This document shows, in pieces, positions 20,125 through 22,294 of a stretch of DNA of 64,000 bases. The notes beneath the pieces are model-generated. The model was not told where the DNA came from. It was given only the letters and a program-made list of their open reading frames with translations, and ran no database searches. Position numbers and translations under genes: made by a program. Position 1 is the first letter of the stretch; each line of letters starts with the position of its first letter. Source of the stretch: Roseomonas sp. (lineage in GTDB: Bacteria > Pseudomonadota > Alphaproteobacteria > Acetobacterales > Acetobacteraceae); contig JADCGA010000001.1 of NCBI GenBank assembly GCA_020249265.1, positions 496,001-560,000 of the forward strand. Reading direction: 5' to 3'.

Positions 20125-20239
20125 GGGGGCGCTGCCCCCTGGCCCCCGCCGGGGTCATTGCGGGCGGATGCCCGCAATGCGCGCAGGGTTGGTGTGGCGG
20201 CTGCGCGCGAAACAAAGGCGTGTTACCCCGGACCCCGCC
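20125..20239 (+). repeat. Structured repeat, copy 1 (left of methyltransferase)
   Basis: About 115 bases, matched in reverse orientation by 22179-22294. It opens with a GGGGGCGCTGCCCCC hairpin, then CCCCCGCCGGGG, a nine-bp stem ATTGCGGGC/GCCCGCAAT around GGAT, the conserved core GCGCGCAGGGTTGGTGTGG closing with TGCGCGC, and ends ACCCCGGACCCCGCC one base before the TAA of the methyltransferase gene. Read as a structured intergenic repeat family; see copy 2. Confidence 0.85.
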
Positions 20240-20240
20240 G

Positions 20241-21896
20241 TTATTCGAACAAGCCCGCCTGAGGGGGGCGCGCGGCCTGTTCGCGGGGCGCGCGGCGGAA
20301 GCCTTCGCCTCGGCCAAGCGGGGGTAAGCGTTCGGCATCATCATGCACGCCGGCCATCAACTCAGCGATGGTCTTGACCATGATTTTGCGAAACTGCCCA
20401 AGCCCGGTTGAGGCATAACCGTGCGAGGCGGCTTCGCGCAGCATGTCCCGCGTTGGGTCCGCCAGCGTGATCAACACGCCACCCAAGGCACCTTCGCGCT
20501 GCACCGTGCCAGCCAAATCCCGCACATCGCGGACCGAGACATTCTCCCCGCCCTTTACGGAGATAATGACCCGATCCAAATCGCCATCCCTGGGGCCGGT
20601 CCGCACCCACCGAATGCCATCAATGCCGCGATCCGCACCCTTCTTCTTGCCGCCCTGCGGCACAGCATCCAACAAGGATATCGCCCACCATTGGAATTGA
20701 TGCTTGTCCCGCGCCGCCAAATCCCGCGCGGCAGACAAATCCCTCGGCGTGCCCAAAACATCAAAGGCGATATTTGGGAAGGCATCCTTCAGCCGACGCT
20801 CCACGAGGGAAATGGCGAGATGCGTGACATCAATCCCCACCCATCGCCGCCCCAATTTTTCGGCAGCATGAACCGCCGTGCCACAGCCACAAAACGGATC
20901 AAGCACGACATCACCGGCATTGGAGGAAGCATTGATGATGCGTTCCAACAGCGTGAGGGGCTTTTGCGTGGGGTAGCCGAGGCGTTCTTGGGCTTGGGAA
21001 TTGATGGGCGGGATGTCATCCCAGGTGTCGCCGTGCGGAACGCCCTGCATTTCATCAAGGTATCGCTTATATCGAGGAACTGCGCCGGGCTTTGGTTGTA
21101 TCACACGCCCCGCATCAATGAGTTCTTGCATTTTCTTTTGAGAATAACGCCAAAAGCGCACGACACCCAATACTTCATAACTTGGATTGCCTTTTGCTGC
21201 ACCGCCAGGCCCCGTGAGATCCCATAGGCCATAGCGACGGCCTGTCGGGTCCGTATGCGGGTATTTTTGAGTTATGTATTTTTCATCGTATTGCCCGAAG
21301 GATTGTTGAAATTTCATAAGGTCCGCACTTTTCGCGTATCGGTGAATGATGTCATGAACGCGTGGAAAATGCTTTGCACCTTGAGCGAAGTCCGCCTTTG
21401 CTGAAGTTCTTTTCCAGACAATTTCGTTAACAAAATTTTCAACGCCAAAAATCCCGTCCAGCAAAATTTTCAAATAATGGCTCGCGGTCGGGTCGCAGTG
21501 TAGATAAAGCGATCCGGTAGGTTTCAGCACGCGGTGTAATTCAATCAGCCGCACGGCCATCATCGCCAGATAGGCGGTCATGTCATTTTTGCCGAGTGCA
21601 GCGACAATGCCGCGTAGCAGAACGGACGCATCGGTATAGACGCCCTGGGTGATCACATCTTCATAGGCAGCGGCGGCGGCGTCGCCCCAGTGCCAGCTAT
21701 CTTCGAAGGCTTCCAATTGGCTGTCGCTCATTTTGCCATCGGGGGCGCGGAACAGCACGTTATAGGTGGCGGCGGAATTGAAGGGTGGGTCCAGGTAGAT
21801 CAGGTCAATGCTCTCATCCGGGATCAGAGGCTTGCCATCCGCATCCCGCCCGCGCAGCACTGCCAGATTATCCCCGTAGAACAGCCTGTTTTTCAT
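20241..21896 (-). CDS. DNA methyltransferase fused to Mrr-like PD-(D/E)XK domain
   Basis: 551 residues. Residues 1-350 are a beta-class (N6/N4) methyltransferase: catalytic DPPFN at 36-40, a central target-recognition region, and SAM-binding DPFCGCGTAV near 332, followed by GRRWVGIDVTHLAISLVERRL. The C-terminal part has GADRGID (near 421-425) and VIISVKGG (near 446) with VRDLAGTVQREGALGGVLIT, the order of Mrr-like endonuclease motifs with Ser in place of the usual Glu/Gln before Lys. One chain thus joins modification to a potential nuclease. ATG at 21896 begins the conserved RLFYGDNLAVL. The target-recognition part (21100-21500) is visibly AT-richer. Flanked by inverted repeats. No separate restriction or specificity gene is adjacent. 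Confidence 0.88.
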   Translation of the reverse strand: MKNRLFYGDNLAVLRGRDADGKPLIPDESIDLIYLDPPFNSAATYNVLFRAPDGKMSDSQLEAFEDSWHWGDAAAAAYEDVITQGVYTDASVLLRGIVAALGKNDMTAYLAMMAVRLIELHRVLKPTGSLYLHCDPTASHYLKILLDGIFGVENFVNEIVWKRTSAKADFAQGAKHFPRVHDIIHRYAKSADLMKFQQSFGQYDEKYITQKYPHTDPTGRRYGLWDLTGPGGAAKGNPSYEVLGVVRFWRYSQKKMQELIDAGRVIQPKPGAVPRYKRYLDEMQGVPHGDTWDDIPPINSQAQERLGYPTQKPLTLLERIINASSNAGDVVLDPFCGCGTAVHAAEKLGRRWVGIDVTHLAISLVERRLKDAFPNIAFDVLGTPRDLSAARDLAARDKHQFQWWAISLLDAVPQGGKKKGADRGIDGIRWVRTGPRDGDLDRVIISVKGGENVSVRDVRDLAGTVQREGALGGVLITLADPTRDMLREAASHGYASTGLGQFRKIMVKTIAELMAGVHDDAERLPPLGRGEGFRRAPREQAARPPQAGLFE

Positions 21897-22178
21897 TACG
21901 CCTTGTCGCACCCAGCCTCGATTGCTGTCACCATGCCCTTATTGCGCCCCGTTTCGCAATCTATGGACCCGCGCGGCAGAGTACGGCGTGCTGATTTATC
22001 GGGGGTCGGGGGAATGAGCGGGGGCGGCCAACCCGCCCCCGATCTACCCTGCCGAGCGACGAGGCCGGTTGGCGGCACGTCGGATCAGGGCAAGACTTCT
22101 TCTAGCCATGGAGGCCGCCATCGGCAAGGAAAATCCTCATGACCGGAGCGTGCATCGCGATCAATACCACCAAGTCCG
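21897..22178. other. Leader region upstream of the methyltransferase
   Basis: No gene is recognised. It holds the presumed methyltransferase promoter. A perfect nine-bp inverted repeat CGGGGGCGG/CCGCCCCCG with a five-base loop lies at 22019-22041 and could act as a terminator-like or protein-binding element; no T-tract follows. Confidence 0.4.
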
Positions 22179-22294
22179 GGCGGGGTCCGGGGTAACATGC
22201 TTTGGTTTTGCGCGCAGCCGCCACACCAACCCTGCGCGCGCCGCGGGCTTACGCCCGCGGTTACCCCGGCGGGGGCTCCGGGGGCGGCGCCCCC
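22179..22294 (-). repeat. Structured repeat, copy 2 (inverted relative to copy 1)
   Basis: Reverse complement aligns along its length with 20125-20239: GGGGGCGCCGCCCCC, CCCCCGCCGGGG, a stem around GTAA with GCGGGC/GCCCGC, the near-identical core GCGCGCAGGGTTGGTGTGG with TGCGCGC, then TGTTACCCCGGACCCCGCC. The paired stem bases differ from copy 1 on both sides together (CG pairs for AT pairs), as structure-maintaining changes would. It ends 38 bases before the xdhA start. Other copies were not found in the window by eye. Confidence 0.85.

Follow-up and report, generated by a model that had tools for sequence, protein, structure and literature searches.

A DNA methyltransferase gene between inverted structured repeats, probably one of a set of interchangeable chromosomal cassettes in a Roseomonas-like clade

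The stretch of Roseomonas DNA analysed here (64,000 nucleotides, hereafter the window) contained a DNA methyltransferase gene lying between two structured repeats in opposite orientation, with a conserved host gene on either side. The features at this locus are listed below, the parts of copy A being mapped from the repeat alignment.

19719 to 20111, forward strand: left flanking host gene, zincin-like metallopeptidase (PF06262, profile search), outside the cassette
20124 to 20140, reverse strand: hairpin 1, read outward from within the cassette, then TTTTG, an intrinsic-terminator-like end of the methyltransferase transcript (terminator pattern)
20125 to 20239, forward strand: boundary repeat A, long form (inverted-pair search, alignment, folding)
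20125 to 20139: hairpin 1 of copy A
20149 to 20155, paired with 20225 to 20231: outer stem of copy A
20157 to 20178: hairpin 2 of copy A
20179 to 20208: hairpin 3 of copy A
20241 to 21896, reverse strand: cargo gene, 551-aa DNA methyltransferase with a C-terminal Mrr-like domain (PF01555, PF04471/PF22722)
21897 to 22178, reverse strand: cargo upstream region inside the cassette (homology to relatives)
22179 to 22294, reverse strand: boundary repeat B, also of the long form and in opposite orientation to A (inverted-pair search, alignment, folding)
22333 to 23757, forward strand: right flanking host gene, xanthine dehydrogenase small subunit (xdhA; TIGR02963 best match, below its cut-off), outside the cassette

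Copies A and B were 115 and 116 bp long and agreed at 101 of 116 positions (87%) in inverted orientation, and they formed by far the longest inverted pair between 19900 and 22800 (105 nt ungapped, the runner-up having 21 nt). An earlier note on this DNA had described inverted copies of about 115 bp just outside the gene, and this was confirmed, with copy A 1 bp after the stop and copy B 282 bp before the ATG at 21896. The 18-base inner end GGCGGGGTCCGGGGTNAC, searched with up to two mismatches, matched copies A and B alone in the window against 0.03 matches expected, so that the pair is not a product of chance. The outer hairpin GGGGGCNNNGCCCCC by itself was found twice in the window against 1.18 expected, which is not above chance.

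Two forms of the repeat and a few hybrids could be distinguished among 37 copies, which came from the window and from 20 loci of which one belongs to the own genome (G000, 3.96 Mb). The short form (about 55 bp) consisted of the outer hairpin GGGGGC-nnn-GCCCCC, a spacer, the palindrome CCGGGGTAAC-AGT-GTTACCCCGG and then ACCCCGCC, and 4 of 12 copies had both palindrome arms altered, giving GGC...GCC. The long form (about 115 bp) contained the identical palindrome, with a loop holding two extra hairpins, the second capped by GGTTGGTGTGGCGG. The repeats fold into four helices, supported by covariation. Across 18 long copies, standard pairs occupied 97.1% of the pair cells (93.0% in shuffles and at most 54% in slid controls, over which the structure has an advantage, being drawn from the same 18 copies that score it), and seven pairs were changed on both sides. 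None of 500 shuffles reached the observed percentage of pairing, the numbers of pairs and of cells with two-sided changes, or the covariation score, and 37 of 500 reached the number of pair types. The main helices also agreed with single-strand DNA folding (z of -2.1 to -3.0). Hybrid repeats, in which a short form runs into a long-form tail (L091 14194-14299 and L093 3293-3400), suggest recombination between the two forms.

Hairpin 3 (GCAGGGTTGGTGTGGCGGCTGC; window 20179-20208, loci L268-L394) has a distribution of its own, being found in at least 120 stretches from Acetobacteraceae, other Alphaproteobacteria and unclassified bins. Four pairs beyond the search pattern all formed in 104 of 128 distinct flanks, which comprised 34 stem kinds, GCGC/GCGC accounting for 81 of the 128; pairs 1-3 were above shuffles and pair 4 was not. 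A tRNA predicted by ARAGORN lay within 50 bases of hairpin 3 in 6 of 13 loci, these loci having been chosen by eye. The loop of hairpin 3 resembles the G-quadruplex of the thrombin aptamer. A known RNA family was rejected as an identity for the repeats, as Rfam gave no match to them either in the window at the gathering threshold, where a single tRNA away from the repeats was found, or in 20100-22340 at E≤5. Copy A had no match in 72,556 plasmid records, and the short core, searched as one exact pattern, was absent from viral contigs, so that plasmid and viral origins were also rejected; hairpin 3, which is general, was found in 7 stretches of viral contigs.

The cargo protein carried the PF01555 N6_N4_Mtase domain that marks beta-class DNA methyltransferases (E 2e-39, residues 30-359, above the cut-off in a profile search), and its best PADLOC matches were type II and III methyltransferases. 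Fourteen solved sequences, all named methyltransferases or modification enzymes or subunits, matched residues 12-383 only. The C-terminus matched PF04471 (Mrr_cat) and PF22722 (NA-iREase1), both above their cut-offs. The catalytic motif of Mrr-type nucleases is D...(Q/E)xK; GIDG and the lysine were retained, and the canonical Q/E-x-K was absent, being replaced by S-V-K in all 6 aligned cargo copies, so that the nuclease label is weak. The Mrr gene of L095 carries QAK. A stretch of about 450 bp in the middle of the gene showed 38-56% DNA identity between types, with mostly 80-98% in the remainder, and one type was common to G000, G008 and G033. This middle is likely to be the specificity part of the enzyme, and its variability beside a conserved remainder is consistent with an exchange of specificity. 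The upstream region 21897..22178 was homologous over its full length in G008 and G022, which carry the gene at the zincin-xdhA site, and in G034, which carries it at another site, and was mostly absent in G033, G024 and G002.

Comparison of related genomes, as the earlier note had proposed, revealed filled, empty and relocated states. Among 18 clade genomes in which both genes were located (the own genome included), the methyltransferase was found between zincin and xdhA in G000, G008 and G022, an FkbM-type gene was found there in G017, the site was rearranged in G029, and it was without the cassette in 13, with the two genes about 50-90 bp apart (gap sequence read in 10 of the 13). At a second site, the methyltransferase and both repeats adjoin a malic enzyme gene in G033, G034, G024 and G002, in which the zincin-xdhA site is empty. 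Homology of the window to these malic-enzyme loci started at 20122-20125, within 3 bp of copy A, and at the right end reached at most 22311, 17 bp beyond copy B, leaving the zincin and xdhA genes outside. The cassette is found at two sites, and occurrence in different contexts is also a mark of pdif modules. G000 and G034, which carry the cassette at different sites, came out as sisters in a tree built from five gene fragments. Wherever the methyltransferase gene was near full length in the genus (7 genomes), both repeats accompanied it, and the two checks proposed in the earlier note, the genome search and the comparison of relatives, both favoured its reading.

The malic-enzyme site in 17 clade genomes contained the cassette in four, was clean in four and held in six a stretch of 66-126 bp with 76-81% similarity to the region upstream of the methyltransferase gene and its first codons; single cases were G019 with a repeat and such a stretch, G013 with one repeat and the rearranged G029. 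Some of these stretches also matched, at 77-89%, DNA lying beyond the second repeat in G033, which makes their reading as remnants uncertain. At a site between oxidoreductase and acyl-CoA-dehydrogenase genes (17 clade genomes, state read in 12), a facing repeat pair was found in G019, G033 and G034, one short repeat in G027 and G008, and an empty site, with stops 291-375 bp apart, in seven. Several empty sites contained hairpin-1-like sequence and filled sites had it at either end; at the oxidoreductase site it was kept in the empty loci of G000, G024, G013 and partly G007. In a comparison for target-site duplication, right-end hairpins matched left ones better inverted than direct. G029 carries a cassette, complete with its two repeats, that has the zincin side of the first site on one flank and the malic-enzyme side of the second site on the other. 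Such a junction would be expected if cassettes or repeats recombine; the reciprocal junction was looked for at xdhA and was not found. One larger genus genome, G016, contained a piece of the methyltransferase gene that matched no more than its final 63 residues; a degenerate repeat of the same orientation followed after about 50 bp.

Each of the 35 genus genomes had at least a partial match to the repeat, and covariance models of the short and long forms were run on all 35; among 150 sampled family genomes the short core was found in two, the own genome and G164. The own genome contained 8 distinct clear copies among the matches listed, plus a weaker ninth beside ruvB, rather than the hundreds that the earlier note had named as refuting, and a BLAST search of it with copy A at E≤10 gave 44 matches, of which only the first two were longer than short pieces. 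Arrangement was tallied in the 19 smaller-genome clade members (the other 16 of the 35 genomes being left out) on the basis of 144 hits among the matches listed. Here 21 neighbouring pairs lay within 6 kb, 19 of them facing each other as in the window with the outer hairpins outward, two in the same direction and none the opposite way, as compared with about 1.8 neighbouring pairs and about 0.45 of the facing kind expected from uniform placement. The 19 facing pairs come from about four sites and one rearranged junction, and since many lie at homologous sites they are not independent. Outside this tally, a cargo-free facing pair about 88 bp apart was seen between ruvA and ruvB, beside ruvB, in G000, G019 and G005 (L117 2837-3033, L122 3072-3267 and L129 2475-2671), with second copies scoring low (43-45 bits). 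G164, from another genus of the family, carried a variant of the short palindrome 12 times, including two oppositely oriented copies at a distance of 3.1 kb.

The genes between facing repeats varied. Thirteen of the 19 pairs bracketed restriction-modification or Cas12f-like genes of five cargo types: the methyltransferase of the window type (7 pairs), an MT-A70 methyltransferase with a BglII-type endonuclease (2 pairs, the methyltransferase frame being shorter in G034), a type ISP enzyme (1), an MmeI-type enzyme (1) and a Cas12f-like protein (2). The others held small lipoproteins (5) or a 306-aa protein (1). Profiles were run for the window gene, for one representative of each other cargo type and for the Cas12f-like protein of G017, and the remaining names rest on homology search or visible similarity. 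At the oxidoreductase/acyl-CoA-dehydrogenase site the cargo was either the MT-A70 and BglII-type enzymes or the type ISP enzyme, and at a site between ABC-F and 3'-5' exonuclease genes it was lipoproteins, the MmeI-type enzyme or the Cas12f-like protein. Different whole-gene cassettes are found between two conserved genes at these sites, as in minimal mobile elements. The own genome contained one unit with a Cas12f-like protein of 564 aa and short-form repeats on both sides (L102 3823-6259, contig 34), and its gene adjoins five direct repeats with a 66-base period and about 36 conserved bases. A similar unit in G017 (L113) encodes a protein with a Cas12f1-like TNB domain. None of the ORFs listed there was recognised as an adaptation gene. 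The lipoprotein-like genes at the ABC-F/exonuclease site are small paralogues, often in tandem (L091 12840-14156, L092, L093, L095 and L111). Neither the scanned lipoprotein representative nor the 306-aa protein (G029, L114 2518-3438, with short-form repeats around it) had a Pfam or PADLOC match.

Some loci depart from this arrangement. At the ABC-F/exonuclease site, G002 contained a lipoprotein and an ATPase gene without a repeat, G033 had one repeat and G023 a weak match alone, and at the oxidoreductase site G031 held other genes with only a weak match on their far side. Cargo without repeats at the same sites indicates that the repeats are not needed for cargo there. An Mrr-type gene beside a sigma-70 gene (G007, G019, G031 and G034) had one repeat rather than two in the stretches seen, and a distant homologue of the methyltransferase from another family (G046, 57% identity) had no convincing repeat. 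Judging from the loci compared, the losses do not appear to be clean excisions between the repeats. The cassettes of G000 and G008 were 92.7% alike and their flanks 90-91%, so that no recent transfer is shown by this pair. The genomes compared are drafts, many of the relatives are fragmented and several are metagenome bins; G034 is 8% contaminated and has its cassette on a 5.3-kb contig.

The earlier note had read the locus as a mobile cassette or a boundary-structured defence unit, with a chance pair of dispersed intergenic repeats as the main alternative. REP/REPIN elements are short intergenic hairpin repeats, sometimes arranged as inverted pairs, and an accidental flanking of some genes by repeats of this kind would fit the occurrence of hairpin 3 alone in many Alphaproteobacteria, the single repeat copies in the tallied genomes and the at least partial match in 35 of 35 genus genomes. 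Nevertheless, with 8 clear own-genome copies among the matches listed and 19 facing pairs where about 0.45 were expected, dispersed repeats were rejected as the sole explanation, and an accident of this kind is very improbable. Y1 transposase (PF01797) had no match in G000 and was matched in only one of the 35 genus genomes (G027), the remaining 34 having none, with 5 of 14 control genomes positive; mobilisation by a RAYT was rejected given that the own genome is without such a match. The repeats might instead be mere terminators or insulators beside acquired genes, the cassettes being exchanged by recombination in the flanking genes as pure minimal mobile elements. This is in line with the terminator-like hairpin and T-run at the end of the methyltransferase gene in copy A, with an A-rich outer flank (39% A over the 10 bases next to hairpin 1 on its outer side, as compared with 19% for the window, in the 31 of 37 copies placed by pattern), with single copies close behind gene stops elsewhere and with the existence of repeat-free cargo. 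However, it leaves unexplained the same repeats on both sides at a second site with other neighbours and the conserved hairpins 2 and 3, and terminator-like sites numbered 4 in 3.1 kb against 3.2 expected, which is not significant as a count, so we consider it improbable as the whole account. As one function among others, an outer hairpin with T behind it on the strand leaving the cassette is consistent with a second role as a terminator, and the repeats would then also end transcription leaving the cassette, so that neighbours would be shielded and the unit would be portable.

The reading we favour is that 20125-22294 is probably one of a set of interchangeable small chromosomal cassettes, mostly for defence, that are moved by host recombination in a Roseomonas-like clade. 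Facing boundaries, alternative cargo and relocation together point to a cassette whose edges are the repeats, and the idea of a mobile or boundary-structured unit gained support from the same inverted pair bracketing other defence genes and from the cassette at two sites, movement being deduced from comparison of genomes. Such cassettes would occupy a few intergenic sites between conserved genes, would be ended by two inverted structured palindromic repeats, and would be gained, lost and relocated by homologous or strand-annealing recombination of the host without an enzyme of their own; here, the cargo would methylate DNA, with specificity exchanged by swapping of the middle domain. Recombination would use either the flanking genes or the repeats, inverted copies of a palindrome being direct copies as well; a 15-bp hairpin and a 23-bp palindrome are short for RecA-dependent recombination. 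No transposase was recognised inside the unit, where the methyltransferase is the one long gene and the other listed ORFs of at least 80 aa overlap the gene or a repeat (the profile scan inside the unit covered the methyltransferase, not these overlapping ORFs), and the own genome has no Y1 transposase match, from which we infer movement by host recombination. The palindrome could otherwise be a recombination site on which a recombinase of the host acts in trans, comparable to XerC/D at pdif, with excision as a circle and insertion elsewhere. The inward-facing orientation of 19 of 21 close pairs, the palindromic core altered on both arms, the presence of one cassette at two sites and the cargo-free facing pairs at ruvA-ruvB speak for this. 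No circle or junction was seen, the core is 10-3-10 rather than the 28-bp 11-6-11 dif layout, and empty sites or remnants are mostly not clean single-repeat scars, and we hold a trans-acting recombinase to be unlikely. More speculatively, the inverted structured palindrome may possibly serve a chromosomal cassette system not yet described as its site of recombination. In such a system a host enzyme in trans, or strand annealing at the palindromes, would bring single defence genes, whether restriction-modification or Cas12f-like with a mini-array, into and out of a few sites in the way XerC/D moves pdif modules, and the long form with its G-rich-loop hairpin would be a second, modular version of the site. 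No description of the repeat was found in the open-access literature, which is not proof of its absence.

Beyond this locus, the preferred reading of host-moved cassettes bears on the question of how small defence genes that bring neither an integrase nor a transposase get from one chromosomal site to another. Several unrelated defence cassettes in one clade have one recognisable boundary, and the occurrence of filled, empty and relocated sites among close relatives makes movement directly testable. The boundary could also be used to find new defence genes, as the lipoproteins and the 306-aa protein sit between the same repeats.

Several described systems are comparable in part. Neisseria minimal mobile elements are different whole-gene cassettes, often restriction-modification systems, between the same two conserved genes, and their quoted definition has them incorporated solely by homologous recombination (PMC3898611). 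The present cassettes are similar in that different ones, often restriction-modification, occupy one site across strains, but that definition as quoted names no boundary repeats, whereas here paired inverted structured repeats accompany a cassette at two sites. In the cited passage on Acinetobacter plasmids, pdif modules are flanked by inversely oriented 28-bp XerC/XerD sites with two 11-bp arms and a 6-bp centre (PMC6449649). Discrete gene modules, inversely oriented short flanking sites and different contexts are shared with that description. In contrast, the boundary repeats here are 55/115 bp long, with a 10-3-10 palindrome and hairpins, lie at chromosomal sites between conserved genes and, by inspection, do not have the 28-bp 11-6-11 layout. 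The immigration control region of Listeria monocytogenes is, according to the abstract, one chromosomal hotspot with diverse restriction-modification systems (PMC10059834); that abstract names no inverted repeat common to the systems, whereas several hotspots with one boundary element are found here. The PaeR7I restriction-modification system likewise moves within a genome, as outlined in PMC3031569, but this movement is linked to an insertion sequence, unlike a unit with no recognised transposase in a genome with no Y1 transposase. REP/REPIN-RAYT systems differ from the present repeats, of which the own genome has about 8 copies among the matches listed and no Y1 transposase match. By analogy, the cassette may work like a minimal mobile element with boundaries that recall those of pdif modules, and the structured inverted boundaries would set it apart.
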